DNA of 30,788 bases from Candidatus Fermentibacterales bacterium (GTDB taxonomy: Bacteria > Fermentibacterota > Fermentibacteria > Fermentibacterales > JAFGKQ01), in NCBI GenBank assembly GCA_016928495.1, contig JAFGKQ010000023.1, positions 1-30,788 of the forward strand. The letters are read 5' to 3'. Below are positions 1 through 21,942 of the stretch, piece after piece; position 1 is the first letter of the stretch, and every line of letters starts with the position of its first letter. The translations under genes and the position numbers were made by a program. Below the pieces are notes generated by a model. It was not told the origin of the DNA and searched no databases. It saw only the letters and a program-made list of their open reading frames with translations.

Positions 1-1647
1 GAAGTCGGTCGGAACGAATCGCAGCATCAGCAGCGAGAGCACGAAGAGCCCGATGGTCGACCAGATCACCAGCTTCCTGTGACCGACGGTCCAGGTGACC
101 GCTCGGTTGTATCGGCTGTTGATGGCGTCTATCCTGCCGCCGATGAGCGCGGCGAGCCTGCCCTTCCTGGGCTCGAGCTTCTTCGCCCTGGAGGTCAGCA
201 GAGGCACCAGGCTCAGCGCAACGAACAGGGAGACGAGCAGGCTGAAGCTTATGGTCAGGCTCATGTCGCGGAAGAGCTGGCCGGACAGGCCCGGAACGAA
301 CAGGATGGGAACGAACACCGCCAGAGTGGTCAGCGTGGAGGCGGTTATCGCCATTCCCACCTCCATCGAGCCCTTCACGGAGGCATCCGGGCCGGCCTCA
401 CCGCTTTCCCTGTACCTGAAGATGCTCTCCAGCACCACTATCGAGTTGTCCACGAGCATGCCCACGGCAAGCGCTAGGCCCGCCAGGGATATGAAGTTGA
501 TGTCCACCTCGAAGAAGTACATGACCGCGAAAGTTGCCACTACCGACAGGGGGATCGAGATGCCGACGATTATCGAGCTCCGCCAGGACCGGAGGAAGAA
601 CAGCAGGACCAGCACCGCGATGATGAAGGCCTGGACGGCTGTCTGAGAGAGGTTGCCTATGGAGTCGGTAATGAACTCGGACTGGTCCCAGAGAACGAAC
701 AGGTCGAAGAGGCCGGCGTAGCGCCCGGAAATGTCCCCCAGCTCCGCGGAGACGGCACGGCAGACGTTCACCGTGTTCGCATCCGACCGCTTCATGATGA
801 AGAGGATCACGGCTGACTTGCCGTCCACCCTGACATGGTCGACTATCTCCATCGTCCCGTCGTAGACCTCCGACACGTCCCTCAGCATGACCGGGCCTCC
901 GGGTCCGTACCCGACGACGAGCTGCTCTATCTCCTCGACCGAGTGGTAGGCGGATTCGACGCGCACGTTGATCTTCATGCCGCCCGCCTCGACGGCTCCA
1001 GCAGGCTGGTCGTTCCTGACCGCCCCGAGAGCACCCACGACGGCCGTGAGCGACACGCCGCTCTCGGCGAGCCTGACCGGATCGACCTCCACCCTTATCT
1101 GGCGCTCCAGTCCCCCCTGAGTCATGGTGGAGCCGACGCCATCGATCCTGTTGATCAGAGGCTCTATCTCCTCCTCGACCATCTCTCTCAGATCGAAGTC
1201 GTTGAGAACGTCGCTGGTGAAGGAGATGAACATCACGGGCTGGGCACTGGGGTCCAGCGCCAGCACGAAGGGCTTGCTGGCATCCTCCGGCAGGAAGTCC
1301 TCGTAGAGATCCAGAACGCGCCTCAGGTCGGTCTCGGCCTGGTTGAGGTCGTAGCCCCAACTGAACTCCGCGATGACGCTGCTGATGCCCGGACTCGAGC
1401 TGGAGGAGACCTTCCGGACGTTCTTGACCCTGGCTGCCGCCTCCTCGAGGATGTCGGTCACCAGGGTCTCCATCTCCTCGGCTCCCGCACCCTGAAGCTG
1501 GCTCACCATGAAGATCATCGGGAACTGGAGGTCGGGGTAGAGATCGACTCCGAGCTGGGTGAGCCCGAAGAGGCCGACACCGAGCACGAAGATGAAGACC
1601 ATGATGAAGGTTATGCGTCTGCGTACCGAGAGGCCCGGGAGGCTCAT
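1..1647 (-). CDS. RND efflux pump permease (AcrB/HAE1 type), 3' part missing
   Basis: Inner-membrane proton-driven pump subunit that exports drugs or amphiphiles through the adaptor and TolC-like channel encoded just upstream. The 549 codons visible are the N-terminal half of a family that is usually 1000-1050 residues; the gene runs off the window at base 1. Seen in the translation: a cytoplasmic start and TM1 (residues about 10-32) followed by the typical 'GVDLYPDLQFP' entry into the porter domain, two periplasmic porter repeats, then TM2-TM6 from about residue 335. The TM4 segment carries 'LAGLALAVGMLVDNSIVVLE', whose acidic residue matches the family's proton relay. The ATG overlaps the adaptor stop codon (ATGA), with a GAGG about 10 bases upstream. 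It is the last visible gene of the tetR-led operon. The substrate cannot be told from sequence. Confidence 0.93.
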   Translation of the reverse strand, partial: MSLPGLSVRRRITFIMVFIFVLGVGLFGLTQLGVDLYPDLQFPMIFMVSQLQGAGAEEMETLVTDILEEAAARVKNVRKVSSSSSPGISSVIAEFSWGYDLNQAETDLRRVLDLYEDFLPEDASKPFVLALDPSAQPVMFISFTSDVLNDFDLREMVEEEIEPLINRIDGVGSTMTQGGLERQIRVEVDPVRLAESGVSLTAVVGALGAVRNDQPAGAVEAGGMKINVRVESAYHSVEEIEQLVVGYGPGGPVMLRDVSEVYDGTMEIVDHVRVDGKSAVILFIMKRSDANTVNVCRAVSAELGDISGRYAGLFDLFVLWDQSEFITDSIGNLSQTAVQAFIIAVLVLLFFLRSWRSSIIVGISIPLSVVATFAVMYFFEVDINFISLAGLALAVGMLVDNSIVVLESIFRYRESGEAGPDASVKGSMEVGMAITASTLTTLAVFVPILFVPGLSGQLFRDMSLTISFSLLVSLFVALSLVPLLTSRAKKLEPRKGRLAALIGGRIDAINSRYNRAVTWTVGHRKLVIWSTIGLFVLSLLMLRFVPTDF

Positions 1648-2726
1648 CTTTCCACGACCTCCACGAGGGACCCGTCCGAGACCCTGTTCTGGCCCCTGAC
1701 TATTACGGAGTCACCGAACTCCACCCCTTCAGTTATCTCGACCATTCCGGCGGTGCGGATCCCAGTCTCGACCGCCCGTATCACCGCGGCTCCGTCCTCG
1801 ACGATCGCGATCTCGTAGCCGTCGCGCGTCCTTCTCAGAACGCTCTCGGGAACCACCACCGCATCGGTCGAGGTCTCGGTCATGATGCTCACCCTGCATG
1901 TCATCCCGGGCCTCAGAAGCTGATCGGGGTTGTCGAAGCGAACCTCCACGGGGACCAGGCCGCTGACAGGGTCCACCGTCGGGGATACTGCGGTGACGAT
2001 GCCCGGGAAGGACTGGCCCTGCAGAGCAGTGACCGAGATGTAGGCCGGAAGCCCGACCCTGAGGGAGTAGATGTCCGACTCGGGAAGCAGCGCCTCGGCC
2101 ACGATCCCCTCGGCGTTGGAGATCGAGACCAGAGGCTGCCCCGAGGCCGTGTTGCCTGCTCTGGCCCAGACCCTTCCGATCCTGCCCGTGAACGGGGCCT
2201 CGATCACTGCATTGTCCCTCACGCTCTCGGCCTGGTTGTAGCCCGCGTAGGCCTGGTTGAGCTGGGCCTGGGCGGCCTCCGCTCCCGTCCTCGCGGCATC
2301 GAGCTGCTGCTCGCTCACGGCGCCCGCCTGGAAGAGGGTCTCCATCCTCTCCAGGTTCTGACCGGCGTTGTCGGCATTGGCTCGCGCGGCGCTAATGGCC
2401 GCAAGGGCAGCCGACGTCCCCGCAGTGGTCTGCTGATCGGTATCGAGCCTCACCAGCTTCTGCCCGGCCTCCACGCTGTCCCCCTCGCTGACGAGGACCT
2501 CGAGGATCCTCCCTGGCATGCTGGCGTAGATCAGCGCCTCCTCGATCCCTTCGAGTCTCGAGTTGGCGTAGACCTCGCGCGAGATCGTCTGGCCCGTCGC
2601 CTCGGCTGCCCTGACCGGAACGGGTCTCTCGGGCGGAGGTGGCGGTGGGCCACATGCGGCCGAGGCAATGAGCATCGAACAGGACGCCATGATGGCGAAG
2701 GTCGTCTCCAGGGGTCTGTTTCTCAT
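1644..2726 (-). CDS. RND efflux periplasmic adaptor (membrane fusion protein), lipoprotein
   Basis: Periplasmic adaptor of the HlyD/AcrA type that bridges the RND pump and the TolC-like channel. The N-terminus is a lipoprotein signal ending in a SAAC lipobox, followed by a proline-rich linker. Next come a lipoyl half-motif ('ASMPGRILEVLVSEGDSVEAGQKL', seen in two parts), an alpha-hairpin rich in Ala/Gln, the second lipoyl half ('IEAPFTGRIGRVWARAGNTA'), a beta-barrel and a membrane-proximal domain. The length of 360 aa is normal. I chose ATG 2726 because GGGAGAG lies 8 bases upstream. An in-frame ATG at 2747 overlaps the TolC-like stop (ATGA) but lacks a ribosome site and would add 7 residues before the signal peptide. 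Its 3' end overlaps the pump gene by 4 bases. Confidence 0.93.
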   Translation of the reverse strand: MRNRPLETTFAIMASCSMLIASAACGPPPPPPERPVPVRAAEATGQTISREVYANSRLEGIEEALIYASMPGRILEVLVSEGDSVEAGQKLVRLDTDQQTTAGTSAALAAISAARANADNAGQNLERMETLFQAGAVSEQQLDAARTGAEAAQAQLNQAYAGYNQAESVRDNAVIEAPFTGRIGRVWARAGNTASGQPLVSISNAEGIVAEALLPESDIYSLRVGLPAYISVTALQGQSFPGIVTAVSPTVDPVSGLVPVEVRFDNPDQLLRPGMTCRVSIMTETSTDAVVVPESVLRRTRDGYEIAIVEDGAAVIRAVETGIRTAGMVEITEGVEFGDSVIVRGQNRVSDGSLVEVVER

Positions 2727-2743
2727 CCCGTCTACTCTCCCGA

Positions 2744-4072
2744 TCATTCTATTGGGGCATGCGTCACTTCGACGAAATCCAGTTGATCCAGGGTTCCCAT
2801 GGATCGCGCGAGTCCGGCCTCGCTCAGCCTGAGGCTGTACAGGGCCGAGGCGTAGTTGGTCCGCGCCGAGGTCAGGGCCAGGAAGGCCTGGTCCATGTCC
2901 AGCCTGGTTATCGTGCCAGCCTCGTAGGACACGGTGGCGATGCCCGCCGCCTCCTCGGCCTGCGACAGGGTGTGGCTCGTGGCCTCGACCCTCTCACGGG
3001 ACTCCTCGAGGCCGTTCCAGCCCTGCACGAGGGAGAGGCCGGACGCCTGTTCCATCGCCTCCGACCCGGCATCGGCAGCCAGTCTGTCGTATCGGGCTGC
3101 GTTGTAGGAAGATATATCGTTCAGGCCGTTGAAGATGGGCACCTGCAGAACCAGCATGAGGTTGAGATCTCGCTCGTAGTCGTCCGTGCTGAAGTGCCAG
3201 TCGGACCTCTGAGCCTGGAAGCCATAGCTGGCCTGCAGGAAGAGGCTGGGGAGCAGAGACGCCCTCTGCATGTCCACGCTCGCGGAAGCGATGCTCCTGC
3301 TCCCCTCGGCCAGGGCGAGCTCGGGGCTGTTCCGGCTCATCAGCGTGACGGCCTCCTCCAGAGTCGAGGGAACGTCCAGCGGCAGGCAGTCCTCGAGGCA
3401 GCCCTCTGCATCGAGCGGGGTGGCGATGTCCAGGCCCATCGCCGTCCGCAGCCCGGCTCTGGCGCTCTCGAGCTGGCTCTGGGCCGCAATGGCCTCGGGC
3501 TTCCTGTTCTCCCATGCCACGCGGCTCTGGAGCAGCTCGAACCTCGAGATGGCCCCGGCCTCGTAGCGAATGGCCGCCAGATTGTAGCCCTCCTCGGCGA
3601 TGGCGAGAGCCTCCTCGGAGACCGCGACCATCTCTCTGGCCAGCAGCAGCCCGTAGAAGGCGCGTATCACGTCCAGGATGGCATTCTGTCTCGTCGCGTC
3701 CAGCTCCACCCCGGCCAGGCCCGAGGAACGTGATGCCAGCCTGTACCCGGCCGGGCCCTGAGGCACGAAGAGAGGGACATCGACTGTGATCCCCGCATCG
3801 GAGATCCACTCGGGACCCATCGAGAAAGACCCCACGCCGGGGACCTCTATCTCCTGCACGTCGTAGTCATGAAGGAACGTGAGGCTGCCGTAGATCGAGG
3901 GCAGGAACCAGTACCTCGCGCCTCTCTCGCTCCACTCGGAGCCATGAAGAGCATGGGCCGCAGCCTCCACGTCCCCCCGGTTGCTGAGGGCCATGCCCAC
4001 GGCCTGCTCGAGATCCACCGACCACGACAGCCCCGTGATCGCCAGCACTGCCACGGCGACTGCCTTGCTCAT
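2744..4072 (-). CDS. TolC-family outer-membrane efflux channel
   Basis: Outer-membrane factor that would complete the tripartite pump. The 442-aa product has a short hydrophobic signal peptide (about residues 1-18, 'VAVAVLAITGLSW') followed by two tandem outer-membrane efflux (OEP) repeats. Each repeat contains the long Ala/Glu/Leu-rich helices of the periplasmic tunnel; for example 'YNLAAIRYEAGAISRFELLQ' in the first is mirrored by 'ATVSYEAGTITRLDMDQAFL' in the second. The start is ATG 4072, overlapping the tetR stop codon by ATGA, with GGGAAGGGAG about 9 bases before it. A longer open frame reaching 4726 is only the shadow of tetR. It is gene 2 of the operon and is translationally coupled on both sides. 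Confidence 0.93.
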   Translation of the reverse strand: MSKAVAVAVLAITGLSWSVDLEQAVGMALSNRGDVEAAAHALHGSEWSERGARYWFLPSIYGSLTFLHDYDVQEIEVPGVGSFSMGPEWISDAGITVDVPLFVPQGPAGYRLASRSSGLAGVELDATRQNAILDVIRAFYGLLLAREMVAVSEEALAIAEEGYNLAAIRYEAGAISRFELLQSRVAWENRKPEAIAAQSQLESARAGLRTAMGLDIATPLDAEGCLEDCLPLDVPSTLEEAVTLMSRNSPELALAEGSRSIASASVDMQRASLLPSLFLQASYGFQAQRSDWHFSTDDYERDLNLMLVLQVPIFNGLNDISSYNAARYDRLAADAGSEAMEQASGLSLVQGWNGLEESRERVEATSHTLSQAEEAAGIATVSYEAGTITRLDMDQAFLALTSARTNYASALYSLRLSEAGLARSMGTLDQLDFVEVTHAPIE

Positions 4073-4719
4073 CCGTCCGCACTCCCTTCCCGTTCTCCGC
4101 CGCGGGGCCCGCCCGTGCCCCCGGCGCCCAGCCCCCTGTAGATAAGGTCGATCATGCTCTCGGGATCGGGCGTCACATCGCTGACCGGCTGACCATGGAG
4201 CAGCTTGACGACGTAAGCGTTGAGGGCTCCGTGATGCATGGTCAGCACCAGCCCGGGGTCCACATCGCCGCGTATCTCCCCGCTCTTCCTGGCTTCCTCG
4301 AAGAGCGGAGTCAGCTTGCGGAGCATCATGTCCGAGATCTCGTCCTGAAGCCTGTCGATCATGAGACGGATGCCCGGATCCAGTATCAGGGCGATGTGAG
4401 CCCTCACAAGATCGGGCCTGTCCTTGATGGCCTCGATTCTCCTGGCGGCCATGCGGACCAGGATCTCCCTCAGCGTGCCCGCGGTCTGGACGATAGCGTC
4501 GATCTCCTTCGAGACCTCTTCCAGGACGGTCTGCGCCAGGGCCACGAACAACCCCTTCTTGCTCCCGAAATGGTAGTAGATCGCGGGCTTGGTCAGGCCG
4601 CACTTCTGCGCGATCTCGCTCATCGTGATGCTGGAGCAGGGCTTGCGTCCAAGCAGCCCGATAAGGGCGCCCAGAATGACGTGCTTGGTGTCCTGCTCCA
4701 GGGGCGTCGGGGCTGACAA
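4069..4719 (-). CDS. TetR-family repressor of the efflux operon
   Basis: DNA-binding regulator, 216 aa, probably the ligand-responsive repressor of its own operon. The N-terminal helix-turn-helix is clear at residues 31-60: 'ITMSEIAQKCGLTKPAIYYHF' in two pieces, then 'GSKKGLFVAL', the canonical TetR pattern. The C-terminal two thirds are helical and resemble the AcrR/BetI-type ligand domain. The start is TTG at 4719-4717, since no ATG or GTG fits the frame; GAAAGAG lies about 8 bases upstream. It is first in the operon, directly downstream of a palindrome placed over the predicted start of transcription, so autorepression is likely. The extreme C-terminus is Gly/Arg-rich and probably disordered. 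The inducing ligand is unknown. Confidence 0.93.
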   Translation of the reverse strand: MSAPTPLEQDTKHVILGALIGLLGRKPCSSITMSEIAQKCGLTKPAIYYHFGSKKGLFVALAQTVLEEVSKEIDAIVQTAGTLREILVRMAARRIEAIKDRPDLVRAHIALILDPGIRLMIDRLQDEISDMMLRKLTPLFEEARKSGEIRGDVDPGLVLTMHHGALNAYVVKLLHGQPVSDVTPDPESMIDLIYRGLGAGGTGGPRGGEREGSADG

Positions 4720-4768
4720 CTGACACGCTCTTTCAAGCCGCTGTGTGGAACACTACATGGAAGCTGCC

Positions 4769-13381: not shown

Positions 13382-14185
13382 ATGGGGTTGGAGTTCACCA
13401 ACTACGAGATCGAGGGCAAGATCGGTGACGGAGCCTTCGGCCCCGTTTACAGCGGCACACGGAAGCAAGACGGACACAGGGTGGCCATAAGGGTCATGCC
13501 CGAGGGCCTCGTGGATTCCAGGCGGGCCAAGGACCGCTTCTCCCGCGAGATGCGGAAGGTCGCCACGCTGCACCATGTCACCCTCTGCCGGCTTCTCGAG
13601 TTCGGGGAGGTCCAGGGCCAGCTCGCCGTGATAATGGAGTACATGGAGGGCACGCCGCTCTCGCGCCTTCTGGGCTCGCCGCCCCAGGCCATGCCGCACA
13701 CGCGCGCCATCCAGATCGTGCGTGAGGTCCTGAAGGGCATGAACTACGTTCACGGCAAGGGGCTGATCCACGGCGACATCTCTCCCGGCAACATATTCGT
13801 AGGCCAGCAGGGGGACATCAAGATCGCGGATCTGGGCGTTGCCGGAGGTCTCTCTTTCGGCACAGCGAGCAGCCCCCATCTTCCCGCCCGCCTTCTCTGC
13901 TACATGGCTCCCGAGTACCTCCTGGAGGGAGTGGTGGATGCCAGAACGGACGTCTACTCGATCGGGATGGTGCTCTACAAGACCCTGGTGGGGCCCATGC
14001 CTCTGGCTCTGGACGAGATAACGGAGCAGGACGTTATGCGTGTCGTCCTCAGGAAGCCCCTTCCTCCCGCAAGGGAGGTCAACCCCCAGGTGCCTGCGTG
14101 GCTGCAGGAGGTCCTGACGGAGGCGCTCTCACACGATCCCTCCAGGCGCCTGCGGAGCTGCGAGGCCTTTCTCAACAGGCTCTAG
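13382..14185 (+). CDS. Ser/Thr protein kinase-fold protein with altered VAIK lysine
   Basis: Hanks-type kinase domain with nothing else attached (267 aa, no transmembrane or sensor part). Seen in order: a glycine loop 'GKIGDGAFGPVYSG' (12-25); 'VAIRV' with Arg 37 where the ATP-anchoring Lys is normally found; a helix-C Glu near residue 56; a catalytic loop 'HGDISPGN' (H130-N137, HRD arginine replaced by Gly but Asp 132 and Asn 137 kept); 'DLG' in place of DFG (D150); 'MAPEY' (175-179); and 'DVYSIGMVLY'. Most catalytic residues are present, so it may be weakly active or may bind nucleotide without phosphorylating. The start is ATG 13382; GGAGGAGG lies rather far upstream. The zinc-ribbon membrane protein precedes it by 105 bases, so they may work together. 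Confidence 0.88.
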   Translation: MGLEFTNYEIEGKIGDGAFGPVYSGTRKQDGHRVAIRVMPEGLVDSRRAKDRFSREMRKVATLHHVTLCRLLEFGEVQGQLAVIMEYMEGTPLSRLLGSPPQAMPHTRAIQIVREVLKGMNYVHGKGLIHGDISPGNIFVGQQGDIKIADLGVAGGLSFGTASSPHLPARLLCYMAPEYLLEGVVDARTDVYSIGMVLYKTLVGPMPLALDEITEQDVMRVVLRKPLPPAREVNPQVPAWLQEVLTEALSHDPSRRLRSCEAFLNRL

Positions 14186-14815: not shown

Positions 14816-14841
14816 CGCTCCTCCGGGTGGGGGTTCGCTCT

Positions 14842-14857
14842 TCCCGCAACGGCGGGA
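14842..14857. other. Hairpin in a divergent start region
   Basis: TCCCGC-AACG-GCGGGA is a perfect 6-bp stem with a 4-base loop. It sits midway between the divergent starts of the UPF0316 and DUF523-DUF1722 genes, which are only 65 bases apart. It may be an operator shared by both genes or a leader hairpin. Confidence 0.25.
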
Positions 14858-14880
14858 GACAGGGAGGGAGATACGACCGG

Positions 14881-15912
14881 ATGACTGCGTCCGCAAGACC
14901 CGGACACGGGAGGAGCCACTTCCAGAGGCCGACACTCGTGCTGAGCCGATGCCTGGAGATCGATAGCTGCAGGTACAACGGCCTCGCCATATCCGCGCCG
15001 ATCGTGAAGAGGCTGCAGCCCTTCGCGGATCTCATCCCCGTCTGCCCGGAGCTGGAGATCGGGCTCGGGGTGCCGCGAGACCCCATCAGCCTGGTCCGCA
15101 CGGCACCGTCCGGAGAGCCGCGTCTGGTTCAGCTATCCACGGGGCGCGACCTCACGCGGACCATGCATGAGTTCTGCAGCCGGTTCCTCGGAGCCCTTTC
15201 CCCTGCTACGGATGGCTTCCTGCTGAAGTCCCGGTCTCCTTCCTGCGGCATACACGACGCGAAGGTGCGCTCCGGGGCAGAACGGGGATCTGCGATCCTG
15301 GGTCGTGCTCCGGGCCTGTTCGGCGCCGCGGTCCTTGCCGCCTTTCCGGAGCTCCCGGTGACCCATGAGGGGCGCATGCTGAACTTCCGGCTGAGGGAGC
15401 ACTGGCTGACCTCTGTCTTCACGCTCGCACGATTCAGGGAGACCGTCGAGGCCTGCGCGTCTTCGGGCAGGATCGGCGCTCTGGTCGAGCTGCACGCCCG
15501 GCTGAAGCTCCTGCTTCTCGCCCAGGGCCGGGTCCACCTCGAGAGGCTCGGGAAGATCGCGGCCAACCCCGAGCGAAGGAAGGCCGCCGGCGTGCTGGAT
15601 GACTACGGGACGGCGCTGCGGGCAGCGCTGGCCAGGCCCTCCAGGAGCGCCGCGAACGTAGACGTGCTGCTACATGCGATGGGGCACATGAAGAAGATGT
15701 TGTCCCCCGGGGAAAAGGCCTTCTTCTTGGACAGCCTGGAGGAGTACCGCCAGGGACGGCTCCCCCTCAGTGCCTGCTGCTCGATGCTGAGATCCTGGGC
15801 GGTCCGCTTCGGGAACGACTACCTGCTCTCGCAGGCCTACTTCGAGCCCTATCCCAGGGAGCTTCTCGAGCTGACCGACTCCGGCCTCGGTCTCTCTCGC
15901 GGCAGGCCCTGA
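14881..15912 (+). CDS. DUF523-DUF1722 fusion protein (TudS/YbgA-like)
   Basis: Two-domain cytoplasmic protein, 343 aa. The N-terminal DUF523 domain (about 18-160) has the family cysteines: C24 and C30 in 'SRCLEIDSCRYNG', C55 in 'PVCPELEIGLGVPRDP' and C122 in 'SPSCG'. DUF523 proteins of the TudS type bind a [4Fe-4S] cluster and desulfurate thiouracil, so an iron-sulfur cluster is likely. The C-terminal DUF1722 (about 165-325, 'REHWLTSVF', 'HLERLGKIAAN', 'HAMGHMKKMLSPGEK') matches E. coli YbgA, whose role is unknown. Fusion of the two is known in other bacteria. The start is ATG 14881 after a GGGAGG-rich leader; an in-frame ATG at 14827 lies within the divergent promoter region. The substrate here is not determinable. 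Confidence 0.88.
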   Translation: MTASARPGHGRSHFQRPTLVLSRCLEIDSCRYNGLAISAPIVKRLQPFADLIPVCPELEIGLGVPRDPISLVRTAPSGEPRLVQLSTGRDLTRTMHEFCSRFLGALSPATDGFLLKSRSPSCGIHDAKVRSGAERGSAILGRAPGLFGAAVLAAFPELPVTHEGRMLNFRLREHWLTSVFTLARFRETVEACASSGRIGALVELHARLKLLLLAQGRVHLERLGKIAANPERRKAAGVLDDYGTALRAALARPSRSAANVDVLLHAMGHMKKMLSPGEKAFFLDSLEEYRQGRLPLSACCSMLRSWAVRFGNDYLLSQAYFEPYPRELLELTDSGLGLSRGRP

Positions 15913-17229: not shown

Positions 17230-19890
17230 ATGGCAGTCACTCGGGCTCCCTCCACTCTCCTGCTCAGGCTGGCGTTTGTCGCTATTCCCCTCGTGCTTGC
17301 AGCCGTTTCCGAGGCTGGAACGACGGGCGCCCTTGCCGGGAGGGTCTCGGGCGAGGACGGCGAGCCGCTGCCGGGGGCCACCATCGTCATCGAGGGAACG
17401 CCGCTGGGCGCGTTCACCGACCAGAACGGGGAGTTCTTCGTCTACGCCGTTCCCCCCGGCACCTACTCGGTGTCCGCCAGGATGGTCGGGATGACGACGG
17501 TGACGAAGCAGGGCATCCGGATACTCACCGACCAGACGACGGTCGAGAGCTTCGAGCTGGCGGTGTCGCCCGCGGGCCACACGGTGATCCAGGTGACGGA
17601 CAGGCGGAACCTGATACTCGAGAACGTGCCCTCGACGATCCACGTGCTGGATCTCACCGAGCTCAGACTGATGCCTGTACCGGATATCCTGGACGTGCTC
17701 GGCAGGCAGCCCGGCATCGTCACGCGCCAGGGAGCCATGCATGTCAGGGGCGGACGGCCGGGGGAGGTGGCCTTCCTGCTCGACGGGATCCCCAGCCGCT
17801 CTCCGCTCGACTACTCCTACGCATCGACCGTGCCGCTCAGCGCTCTCTCCCAGACATCCCTGACGACCGGCGGTATCGATGCGGAGTACGGCAACGCGAT
17901 GTCCGGGGTGGTGAGCATGGTCACCCGAGAGGGGGGCAGGGAGCTCGAGGGTGAGCTCTACGTCCGCGGGGGAGACATGACCGAGTTCGGGTACGAGAAC
18001 ATCGCCCGGAACTACTCCGAGCCCTCGGAGAACGACAGCTACAGAAGTAACGCGATCGACGTCGAGTGCGCCCTGGGCGGCCCCGAGCCGATCACCGGGC
18101 TGCTCCTCCCGGCTCTGGGGGCGGAGCTTCCGGGCGAGGTCACCGTCTTCGGCTCGCTGCGCTACATGCGAAGCGGCCGCGATCTCCGCGACAGCAGGGA
18201 CAACTGGGAGAACAACTGGCAGAACTTCTTCTCGGGCTCCCTCAAGATCACCTCCCGCCCCTCGGCGTCCACCAGGCTCTCTCTGCTCGGCTTCTACAAC
18301 TACAGGCAGAGCGGATGGGACGAATGGGCATGGTCGCGCTACGACGAGCCCGCATACATCGAGGGCGAGCCCTATCTGGGCGGTGACCCGGACTACGCCC
18401 TGCCGATACGGTTCCTGGAGACCGGAGGAGCCACCGGCTCTCTGACCCGGATGCTCGGCGATGACGTCTGCCTCGATTTCAGGCTCAACCAGACCAGGTT
18501 CTGCCACTGGCGGAGGATCCTGGATCCGGACGGGGGCTACTTCGGCGAGGCCTACTCGCCCGGTGACTGGGCCACCGTGTTCTATCCGACGCCCCGGGTC
18601 GCCGACTCTCTGGGCTTCTACCATTCGGGCGTCCATCCCGACGTATGGCTGGAATCGAGAACGACGGTGTCCACGGGCAAGACGGACATCACCGTGAGAG
18701 CCAGTCAGGACCTCGAGATCAAGGGCGGCCTCGAGAGCCGCTACTACGATGTCTACGACTATAGCGTCTACCTCGAGAGCCAGGGCGACTGCCACGTCAG
18801 TCTGTGGAGGGCATACCCCAGCTCCCATGCGGCCTACGTCAGGAGCACCTGGAAGCTGGGGAGCGGCATGGTGCTGAATGCCGGGATCAGGTTCGACCTG
18901 TTCCTGCCGAACGCGGACAGCTACGATCCGGACGGAGGCGGCTGGAGCACAGCGGAGGCGAAGCACCAGATAAGCCCCAGGTTCGGGGTGACCCATCCCG
19001 TCACCGAAAGGGACGTCTTCTTCGCCACCTACGGCCACTACTTCCAGATGCCCAACCTGAACCAGCTCTACTTCGGCACCGACTACAACATCTCGGGGCT
19101 CTACTCCCTGGTCGGGAACCCCGACCTCGAAGCGGAGAGGACCGTCGCCTACGAGGCCGGCGTCCGGCACCGCATCTCCGAGACCACGTCGATCGCTCTG
19201 TCGGCCTTCTACAAGGACATCACGGGCCTCGTGCGCACGGGGGAGCACTACAGCGAGGGCTTCGAGTACTACTACGTCTACGAGAACGACAACAGCCATG
19301 CCACGGTGAGGGGCTTCGAGCTGAAGCTGCTGGGTCTGCCGGAAGGACCGCTATCGGGAAGCGCCAGCTACTGCTACACCATCGCGAGGGGAAGGTACTC
19401 TTCCCCGCTGGAGGCCTGGCAGTACGGAGCGGGAGGCTACCTGATCGAGCCGACGACGGACAACTACCTGGACTGGGACCAGAGGCATGCGGCGACAGTC
19501 CATGCCACCCTTTCGATCCCGAGGGGAGAGGGCCCTTCCGTCCTGGGCTGCAGGCCCCTCGAGGGAACAGAGGTCACGCTTGACTGGGCCTATGGCAGCG
19601 GCTTCCCCTTCAGCCCGCCCCCGGGGGAATCGCTGGTGCCCGACATAAACACCATGAGGTACCCCTCCACCACGCAGACCGACCTGGGCGTGGCCAGGTC
19701 GTTCTGGATAGGACCGCTGACGCTGCGCACAGGGGTCACCGTCTACAACCTGCTGGATGCGAGGAACCTCGACAGGATCTTCGACGCGGGTTACTACCTG
19801 GAGCAGGGCGACCCCGGCGGCCCGGCGGGCAATCCCGGAGCGTGGTCGCCCGCGAGGCACCTCGCCCTGAGGCTGACGGCGCTATGGTAG
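17230..19890 (+). CDS. TonB-dependent outer-membrane receptor with N-terminal carboxypeptidase-regulatory-like domain
   Basis: Large outer-membrane receptor, 886 aa, for energised import of an unknown ligand. A signal peptide covers residues 1-29. A CarboxypepD_reg-like beta-sandwich lies at about 33-110 ('GRVSGEDGEPLPGATIVIEG', 'DQNGEFFVYAVPPGTYSV'). The plug spans about 130-235 ('ILDVLGRQPGIVTRQGAMHV', 'RGGRPGEVAFLLDGIPSRSP', 'GGIDAEYGNAMSGVVSMVTR'). The remainder is a beta-barrel rich in aromatic strands, ending '...HLALRLTALW'. The extension domain is typical of SusC-like and other FCB-group receptors. The start is ATG 17230 with GAGGAGG 6 bases upstream; GTG 17215 was rejected because the ribosome site would fall inside it. 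The next gene, a lipoprotein, starts 7 bases before this stop, so the two are translationally coupled and probably partners. Confidence 0.9.
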   Translation: MAVTRAPSTLLLRLAFVAIPLVLAAVSEAGTTGALAGRVSGEDGEPLPGATIVIEGTPLGAFTDQNGEFFVYAVPPGTYSVSARMVGMTTVTKQGIRILTDQTTVESFELAVSPAGHTVIQVTDRRNLILENVPSTIHVLDLTELRLMPVPDILDVLGRQPGIVTRQGAMHVRGGRPGEVAFLLDGIPSRSPLDYSYASTVPLSALSQTSLTTGGIDAEYGNAMSGVVSMVTREGGRELEGELYVRGGDMTEFGYENIARNYSEPSENDSYRSNAIDVECALGGPEPITGLLLPALGAELPGEVTVFGSLRYMRSGRDLRDSRDNWENNWQNFFSGSLKITSRPSASTRLSLLGFYNYRQSGWDEWAWSRYDEPAYIEGEPYLGGDPDYALPIRFLETGGATGSLTRMLGDDVCLDFRLNQTRFCHWRRILDPDGGYFGEAYSPGDWATVFYPTPRVADSLGFYHSGVHPDVWLESRTTVSTGKTDITVRASQDLEIKGGLESRYYDVYDYSVYLESQGDCHVSLWRAYPSSHAAYVRSTWKLGSGMVLNAGIRFDLFLPNADSYDPDGGGWSTAEAKHQISPRFGVTHPVTERDVFFATYGHYFQMPNLNQLYFGTDYNISGLYSLVGNPDLEAERTVAYEAGVRHRISETTSIALSAFYKDITGLVRTGEHYSEGFEYYYVYENDNSHATVRGFELKLLGLPEGPLSGSASYCYTIARGRYSSPLEAWQYGAGGYLIEPTTDNYLDWDQRHAATVHATLSIPRGEGPSVLGCRPLEGTEVTLDWAYGSGFPFSPPPGESLVPDINTMRYPSTTQTDLGVARSFWIGPLTLRTGVTVYNLLDARNLDRIFDAGYYLEQGDPGGPAGNPGAWSPARHLALRLTALW

Positions 19891-20897
19891 GCCTCCGGGG
19901 CGCCGGCTATCCGGCCCGTGCTCTGCCCGTGGCGCTTGCGCTCCTTGTCTCGAGCTGTCACGAAGTCGTCGAGTACGGCTCCGTAGGATCCTATGGCGTC
20001 TGCATCATCAGGACCTCAGACATGGCCCAGGTGGACTGCATCGAAGGCTTCGAGGGGGGGCGAAGCCTGTGCTCCCTCGGCAACAGCCTGTTCCTTGTGG
20101 CCTCGACGACCGGCGCGCTGTTCAGGGTCAACTCCGCGGACAGGGTAGTCGAGGAGGTCTACCAGATCGGACCGCCATTCTCTGCCGGATACGACGAGAT
20201 GACCCAGGTCGGAGTCGGGCAGGTCTACCTGGTCGGGGGATTCGGGCAGCTCCTCGAGTTCGGTGTCCCGCAGGGCGGCCTCGAGGACCAGTTCCCGGCG
20301 GGGCCGTCACCGGCCGCGCTGTCCAGGTCGACGGTTCCCGGACGCCTCTATGTAGCCGACTCCTACGACTGCATGATCCGGGAGGTATGGACCAGCGACA
20401 ACACGGCATACAGGGAGTTGACTCTCGATGGGACGCCATCCGGGCTTGCCTTCTTCGGATGGCCGGCGGGCTATCTGGCCGCGGTCTGCTCCGACCTGGG
20501 TGTGCTCTACACCGTGGACGTAGCAGGCTTCGTCGCTCAGAGCATCCCGCTCCCCGGGAGCTGCTCCGACGTGGCCGTGCTGTCCGACACCTCCATCTAC
20601 TGCGTCACCCACCCCGCCTGGTCCCAGAGCAACGGGCGAGTCACCCTCGGAGACCGTTTCGGCCTGACGCCCGCGATGATCACCCTTCCCGCCGAGGGTC
20701 ACCCGTGCTGCGTGTGTGCCTCGCCCACCACCGCCAGATTCTACGTTGCCTCAGTGCTCGAGGACGGGACCTCGAGGGTCATGGAGGTAGACGCTCTTCT
20801 CTGGGGGCTCACCAGGTCATGCGAGGTCGGCGGCTATGTCAGGGACATCACCACTCACGCGAATGGCGAGTACGTGCTGGTCCTGACGTCCAACTAG
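19884..20897 (+). CDS. Beta-propeller-like surface lipoprotein paired with the TonB receptor
   Basis: Lipoprotein, 337 aa. The signal peptide ends in LVSSC (lipidated Cys 25). The mature part shows repeated units of about 40 residues with strand patterns such as 'SLCSLGNSLFLVASTTGALF', 'QVYLVGGFGQLLEFGVP', 'GRLYVADSYDCMIREVWT', 'YLAAVCSDLGVLYTVDVAG' and 'RFYVASVLEDGTSRVMEVDA'. These are characteristic of a six- or seven-bladed propeller (YncE/BtuG-like). Several cysteines may form disulfides. The ATG overlaps the receptor stop by 7 bases. In Bacteroides, BtuG is a propeller lipoprotein that sits on the TonB receptor BtuB and captures cobamides; here a similar receptor-cap role is inferred from fold and gene order only. 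Its end overlaps the convergent S41-like gene by 50 bases. Confidence 0.8.
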   Translation: MVGLRGAGYPARALPVALALLVSSCHEVVEYGSVGSYGVCIIRTSDMAQVDCIEGFEGGRSLCSLGNSLFLVASTTGALFRVNSADRVVEEVYQIGPPFSAGYDEMTQVGVGQVYLVGGFGQLLEFGVPQGGLEDQFPAGPSPAALSRSTVPGRLYVADSYDCMIREVWTSDNTAYRELTLDGTPSGLAFFGWPAGYLAAVCSDLGVLYTVDVAGFVAQSIPLPGSCSDVAVLSDTSIYCVTHPAWSQSNGRVTLGDRFGLTPAMITLPAEGHPCCVCASPTTARFYVASVLEDGTSRVMEVDALLWGLTRSCEVGGYVRDITTHANGEYVLVLTSN

Positions 20898-21942
20898 CCC
20901 GCGCGCCGGGCCCGGCGCCCCTCGCCCAGAGCAGCGCGAACTCGAGTATGGGATCCCTTCCGGCCGCGAAGTCTTCCGGCGTTGCCGGCACGAAGATGTC
21001 CGGGGCGACACCGGTGACCTGGAGCCAGCTCGAGCTGTCGGCCCTGAGGATGGTCTCGACGGGGACCGAGTAGGAGCTCCCTCCGGGAAGGGCGTAGACA
21101 GCGGGCGTCGTGACCTCGCTCATGGTCGTGTCCCCTATCAGGACGGCGTTCGGCAGCTCGTCCGCCATGCACGCGAACAGCTCCGGAGCACCGTAGCAGT
21201 CCTCCCCTATCAGAACGGCGACCGGCCCCTCGTACCAGGAGGGCAGGGTGTAGACGTGCCTGGGCTCGGGCTCGCTCAGGTCCTCCCGGCCCGGTCCTTT
21301 CCGGTACAGGGTGTAGTAGGCGATCCTCGTCTGGTCATTGAACCGCCGGGCGACCTGGCCTATCCTCTCGACAGAGCCTCCCCCGCAGGGCCTCTGGTCG
21401 ATCACCACTGCAGGGGCATCGGGGTGCTGGGCAAGGACCTCGTCGAGATAGCCGCCGTAGATCATGTCGTTCCACTCGGCGATCAGGATGTAGGGCACCG
21501 AGTCCATCACGCAGTAGCCCCACCAGCCCTCCTCGAACCACTCGAAGCCGGCAGGCTCGAGGTAGTTCTGCCAGAGCACGTCCCAGTCGTAGCTGGCCTC
21601 CACATCGGGCTGCCATGGAACGATCGGGTCACCCGCAAAGACCAGGCATATCCCGGCGTCCTCGAGCTCCGACAGCATCTCGCTCATCAGGTAGATGAAA
21701 GATGCCTGCGTCGTGACGGTGTCAGTCCTTGCCGAGTACTCCTCGAAGACCTCGTCCCAGTCCACCGCTCCGGTGTAGACGAATCCCACGAACAGCCGGT
21801 CGTACTGGTTCCAGATCAGCTCGAGCTGGGCGAGGTAGTCGTCGTGCCCGCCAAGATCCACGGGATCGTCGAGGCAGGAAACCGTCAGACACGACGCCAG
21901 GATGGCGGCTGTCCGCCAGAGCCTCGCGGACGGCCTCCTCAC
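20848..21942 (-). CDS. S41 peptidase-like lipoprotein lacking the catalytic Ser and Lys
   Basis: Predicted lipoprotein, 364 aa. The signal peptide starts MRRPSARLWR and ends at VSC (lipidated Cys 23). The core follows the C-terminal-processing-protease (S41) fold: 'PAVVIDQRPCGGGS' (177-190, like the family's DLRxNPGG), 'GPVAVLIGEDCYGAPELFA' (239-257), 'AVLIGDTTMSE' (266-276), 'GSSYSVPVETI' and 'GVAPDIFVPATPEDFAAGRD' (311-330). Where active enzymes have SxSxSE and the TFGKG lysine, this protein has Gly 251 and Glu 276, so it is probably catalytically dead and may bind peptides or a partner. I chose GTG 21942 because it gives a clean signal; the open frame reaches 22170 without one. It follows the jelly-roll gene by 34 bases, likely in one transcript. 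Confidence 0.78.
   Translation of the reverse strand: MRRPSARLWRTAAILASCLTVSCLDDPVDLGGHDDYLAQLELIWNQYDRLFVGFVYTGAVDWDEVFEEYSARTDTVTTQASFIYLMSEMLSELEDAGICLVFAGDPIVPWQPDVEASYDWDVLWQNYLEPAGFEWFEEGWWGYCVMDSVPYILIAEWNDMIYGGYLDEVLAQHPDAPAVVIDQRPCGGGSVERIGQVARRFNDQTRIAYYTLYRKGPGREDLSEPEPRHVYTLPSWYEGPVAVLIGEDCYGAPELFACMADELPNAVLIGDTTMSEVTTPAVYALPGGSSYSVPVETILRADSSSWLQVTGVAPDIFVPATPEDFAAGRDPILEFALLWARGAGPGARASWTSGPARTRHSREW

Follow-up and report, generated by a model that had tools for sequence, protein, structure and literature searches.

A TonB-dependent receptor gene linked to a propeller lipoprotein and an S41-fold lipoprotein in Candidatus Fermentibacterota: a probable lidded importer

Candidatus Fermentibacterota, formerly Hyd24-12, carry a multi-copy gene module that encodes a TonB-dependent outer-membrane receptor, a predicted seven-bladed propeller lipoprotein, and a lipoprotein of the S41-peptidase fold. 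We describe the module from a window of 30,788 nucleotides, the whole stretch of DNA that was analysed (contig JAFGKQ010000023.1 of assembly GCA_016928495.1), which belongs to a 2.3 Mb draft genome of this phylum. The three genes are tightly linked, have expanded as paralogs, and diverge in a correlated manner, and most of the S41-fold copies have lost the catalytic serine. These features make it probable that the module is a propeller-lidded TonB importer similar to BtuBG and XusAB, supplemented with an S41-fold accessory that would bind the ligand or hand it over. Coordinates are collected in Table 1.

Table 1. Features of the module and other genes of the window.
Feature	Position	Strand	Description
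TonB-dependent outer-membrane receptor	17230..19890	+	Signal peptide, CarboxypepD_reg, Plug, TonB barrel, C-terminal Trp; 886 aa
Propeller lipoprotein	19884..20897	+	337 aa; Cys25; linker C[HYT]xxxE[YF]; predicted seven-bladed propeller
Stop/start overlap of receptor and lipoprotein, ATGGTAG	19884..19890	+	7 bases
S41-peptidase-fold lipoprotein	20848..21942	-	Tricorn_C1-like N-terminus; GTG start; lipobox LTVSC; Gly at nucleophile position (YGAPE)
RND efflux operon	1..4726	-	AcrB-type pump, HlyD/CusB-type adaptor, outer-membrane efflux protein
Eukaryotic-type Ser/Thr protein kinase gene	13382..14185	+	
2-thiouracil desulfurase domain fused to DUF1722	14827..15912	+	

A first-pass annotation of the window had reported a 7-base overlap between the receptor and lipoprotein genes, a lipobox on the lipoprotein, and a CarboxypepD-plug-barrel order in the receptor; all three hold. 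The overlap is exact and common to both open reading frames, and it recurs in relatives. Among the 38 modules with both a full receptor and a full propeller, the propeller start lies at most 30 bases from the receptor stop in 36, the two genes overlap in 16, and the identical 7-base overlap is present in 14; the start codon nearest to the receptor stop was taken for these counts, which biases them to short gaps. The spacing of receptor and propeller is tighter than expected by chance. The 7-base form is favoured because the receptor terminates in a Trp codon followed by TAG (TGGTAG).

The receptor matches, in order, the Pfam domains CarboxypepD_reg (1.7e-16), Plug (1e-7), and TonB barrel (8.7e-24). 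It is classified as a TonB-dependent receptor by the succession of Plug and TonB-dependent barrel, both above the Pfam cut-off. Its predicted structure is weak (pLDDT 63), and the low-confidence model still matches solved receptors, for example, PqqU and Cir. Two assignments to known families were rejected. As a SusC/RagA protein, the receptor reaches 37 bits against the TIGR04056 cut-off of 368, through its CarboxypepD part only. As BtuB, it reaches 32 bits against the TIGR01779 cut-off of 600, and 40 against the PRK10641 cut-off of 836.

The propeller lipoprotein begins MVGLRGAGYPARALPVALALLVSSC-HEVVEY, with the cysteine of the lipobox at residue 25. No Pfam, NCBIfam, or PHROGs family scores above cut-off for it, and a tblastn search of plasmids gave no match. 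An AF2 model built from an alignment of 42 relatives has a mean pLDDT of 90 and a pTM of 0.86, and is nearly all-strand, with 27 strands listed. Low confidence is confined to the signal peptide and to residues immediately past the lipid cysteine. In structure comparison, residues 35-337 align to seven-bladed propellers with Z of about 32-36 among the matches listed, where 1l0q, an S-layer propeller from an archaeon, ranks first (Z 35.7), followed by YncE (Z about 33). The model and the alignments agree with the propeller fold that the first-pass annotation had guessed and set as a test of its proposal; on these predictions, the fold is well supported. Propellers serve many roles, however, and unrelated propellers fit the model as well as YncE does, which counts against reading the protein as a lid.

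Kinship with BtuG was examined at the level of profiles. Against solved structures, the lipoprotein profile matches 1l0q first (4e-27) and reaches 3dsm, 8bmy, 8baz, 8bn0, and 8p97 at about 1e-3; these we take to be BtuG structures, from the entry names and PMC10404256. DUF5074 is matched weakly by 3 of the 42 family members, and the window protein is not among them. A specific BtuG kinship is thus weakly indicated by the profile matches, while the absence of BtuG chains from the best 50 matches of the structure comparison has no bearing on it either way. The arrangement itself is of the BtuG type, in that a lipoprotein predicted to be a seven-bladed propeller is encoded beside a TonB receptor.

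The stretch between the lipid anchor and the propeller carries an invariant residue. Glu30, five residues past the lipid cysteine, is invariant in 42/42 relatives, and the linker that holds it is predicted to be disordered on its own. Invariance in spite of predicted disorder is expected of a linker that binds a partner. In 17 other candidate lipoproteins, a Glu is found at the equivalent position in just 2 and is absent in 15. Alternatively, the invariant Glu30 could be an export signal; we know of no lipoprotein export signal described for Candidatus Fermentibacterota.

The first-pass annotation recognized the receptor-propeller pair and overlooked the third conserved partner, the S41-fold lipoprotein. 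In the window, its gene is convergent with the propeller gene, and the 3' ends overlap by 50 bases. The encoded protein contains Peptidase_S41 and Tricorn_C1 domains. Members of the S41 family are located within 6 kb of 43 of the 60 family receptors; receptors without one at this distance mostly lie at contig ends, have the gene just beyond 6 kb (G014:C124 and G029:C134), or have a fragment of it at the contig edge. In several loci of the Sabulitectum type (L091, L096, L097, and L100), the S41 gene is on the same strand as receptor and propellers, adjoining them or placed between them. That adjacency is kept despite changes in orientation argues for a function in common.

One possibility is protein or peptide scavenging, where the S41-fold lipoprotein would act at the surface as a working protease and provide cut substrate to the importer. 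In its favour, Peptidase_S41 is matched by 27/27 aligned members and Tricorn_C1 by 23 of the same 27, 5 of 43 module copies keep a Ser at the nucleophile position, and secreted proteins with FlgD_ig/T9SS tails adjoin the module in one clade. Against it, the nucleophile position is other than Ser in 38 of the 43 module copies, the window included, whereas 5 of 10 copies outside modules have Ser there; the position was scored as three residues before a conserved Glu, assuming an alignment register that agrees with 4l8k. No Lys occurs in the stretch expected to hold that of a CtpA-type dyad in any S41 copy scored. The window protein, with a Gly in place of the catalytic Ser, is not classed as an active peptidase by this position, and most module copies are probably pseudo-proteases, since so few retain the Ser. 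The solved structures 4l8k (E 1e-60) and 8vcb align to almost the entire length of the family, whose profile also matches, partially, the interphotoreceptor retinoid-binding protein (IRBP), a non-peptidase. IRBP demonstrates that the S41 fold is able to bind a ligand without cutting. We consider peptide scavenging improbable, and prefer ligand binding over cutting as the role of the S41 protein.

Two further observations concern neighbours and relatives of the S41 genes. In one clade (L072, L073, L074, L076, L101, and L117), three large genes, which in most cases diverge in orientation from the receptor, adjoin the module, and some encode FlgD_ig or T9SS-tail-like ends; in L074 and L076, the S41 gene is at the far end of these three. 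Away from family receptors, L165 and L166 each contain tandem S41 lipoprotein genes, where one member of the pair has Ser and the other Glu at the nucleophile position.

The linkage of receptor and propeller was surveyed by searching genome contigs, all from metagenome-derived drafts, with the receptor alignment. Counted over matches above the low-scoring range, the propeller gene is directly downstream of 56 of 60 full-family receptors, such that the pair is kept together in relatives, the second test that the first-pass annotation had set for its proposal. Of the remaining four receptors, three are cut by contig ends and one (G013:C10) has its propeller directly upstream, in the gene order propeller-receptor-S41. 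Viewed from the lipoprotein, 76 of 93 matches have a receptor no more than 8 kb upstream in the same orientation, the other 17 including fragments and contig edges; in wide loci around the lipoprotein matches, the receptor is directly upstream in nearly all. Clustering of neighbours for a fourth conserved gene returned a best family in 9 of 53 loci.

The lipoprotein relatives that were found are all within Candidatus Fermentibacterota, in 37 of 42 genomes with a threshold of 1e-10; at E<=1e-20, the profile matches 0 of about 248 genomes outside the phylum. Paralogous expansion is evident within genomes and within loci: the host genome has two further receptor-propeller pairs, on contigs C321 and C66, and a receptor may be accompanied by one, two, or three recognised propellers, arranged in tandem. 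Where two or three propellers are arrayed, not all can be the lid simultaneously. A sister receptor clade of 24 copies (800-1000 bits, about 37-43% identical) has neither a propeller nor an S41 gene in any copy examined (0/24), and in the receptor tree, one branch with full support separates the propeller-less receptors from the rest. In five loci (L105, L109, L111, L113, and L121), genes for a short protein, secreted or in the membrane, and for an ExbD-like protein come after the sister-clade receptor. In Candidatus Sabulitectum silens JCC-6 (L098 and L130), receptor genes are interrupted by stops or frame shifts, by decay or sequencing error.

Divergence within the module is correlated. Distance matrices give r=0.92 for receptor and propeller, 0.90 for receptor and S41, and 0.89 for propeller and S41, values to which species history contributes in part. 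The nearest neighbours of receptor and propeller agree in just 58% of cases, which counts against the propeller as a lid. Mean identity is 32% for the propeller and 52% for the receptor, and lower conservation than the receptor is expected of a ligand binder. In a different placement, the propeller would face the periplasm and help to fold or stabilise the receptor without capping it. Linkage alone is silent on the side of the membrane, and there is a precedent in BamB, a propeller lipoprotein of the inner leaflet. We regard this placement as quite unlikely: an assembly factor dedicated to one receptor family, with many diverged copies and tandem arrays, would be unlike BamB; sister receptors manage without a propeller; and the propeller falls below the receptor in conservation.

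A true BtuB-BtuG pair that imports vitamin B12 in a new phylum, which the first-pass annotation had already doubted, is very improbable: the propeller profile does reach BtuG structures and DUF5074 at the weak levels given above, but it is nearer to the archaeal S-layer propeller, the receptor is far below the BtuB cut-off, no corrinoid genes were recognised among the neighbours scanned, no cobalamin riboswitch was detected in the window and in nine loci related to it, and Rfam as a whole gave zero matches across the window and 147 kb of related loci.

We favour a propeller-lidded importer that would operate as follows. The TonB-dependent receptor would span the outer membrane, and the propeller lipoprotein would be produced by coupled translation. 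Exposed at the cell surface, the propeller would dock on the outer face of the receptor, in a physical complex, as a ligand-capturing lid tethered by the short conserved linker. Ligand bound by the lid would be passed to the barrel and imported in a TonB-driven manner, as in BtuBG and XusAB. We infer a position over the barrel mouth from the correlated divergence, the invariant Glu30, and two precedents: the linker of BtuG2 runs along the barrel loop EL2 (PMC10404256), and XusB sits on XusA as a lid-like cap (PMC13142918). The S41-fold lipoprotein, usually without a catalytic serine, would most likely bind the same ligand or a precursor, without cutting. Our guess is that the ligand is scarce and of medium size, for instance a peptide, siderophore, or cofactor. 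A bolder version, tentative and on the unlikely side, is that the module represents a new class of outer-membrane uptake machine, diversified by duplication phylum-wide, in which the receptor is supplied with a class of ligand new to TonB transport by two unrelated lipoproteins that capture it jointly, the propeller lid and a retinoid-binder-like S41 pseudo-protease.

Comparison with known systems places the module beside, and not within, existing families. BtuB-BtuG of Bacteroides thetaiotaomicron, which imports vitamin B12, is alike in co-encoding a TonB receptor and a seven-bladed propeller lipoprotein, in the linker joining the lipid cysteine to the propeller, and in its multiple copies per genome. 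In contrast, the module is found in another phylum, shows no corrinoid evidence in riboswitch and neighbour scans, and combines a CarboxypepD-bearing receptor that is not BtuB by family models with a weakly BtuG-like propeller and an S41-fold lipoprotein as third partner. SusC-SusD and utilisomes of Bacteroidota share a CarboxypepD-plug-barrel receptor under a lipoprotein lid, sometimes with extra surface lipoproteins; the module receptor differs by its score, far under the SusC/RagA cut-off. SusD is a helical TPR protein and not a propeller. The proteins 4l8k, 8vcb, and IRBP share the S41 fold, over nearly the whole length for the first two, whereas the module protein is lipid-anchored, linked to a TonB receptor, and has mostly lost the nucleophile. 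XusA-XusB, for xenosiderophores in Bacteroides, likewise has a TonB receptor under a seven-bladed propeller lipoprotein lid (PMC13142918). Xus loci encode PepSY inner-membrane proteins where the module has S41 lipoproteins, and the propeller was rejected as XusB, DUF4374 being matched by 0 of 42 members at E<=0.01. The module may work on the same principle as BtuBG and XusAB; the family models do not support placing it in either.

To our knowledge, what is new is the lineage, a propeller paired with a receptor of the CarboxypepD type, the arrangement of propellers in tandem, and a partner of the S41 fold. A full-text literature search for the S41 fold with TonB lipoproteins found no paper, and a literature search for Fermentibacter with TonB found nothing on the module. 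Lipoprotein-capped TonB importers have been described in Bacteroidota, and are proposed to be among the reasons why these bacteria thrive in the gut (PMC10404256). The same gene arrangement, in many copies throughout Fermentibacterota, points to repeated origins of lidded import or to a greater age than assumed, and suggests that lipoprotein-lidded import may reach well past gut Bacteroides. The S41-fold partner provides a concrete handle on the ligand in an uncultured phylum.
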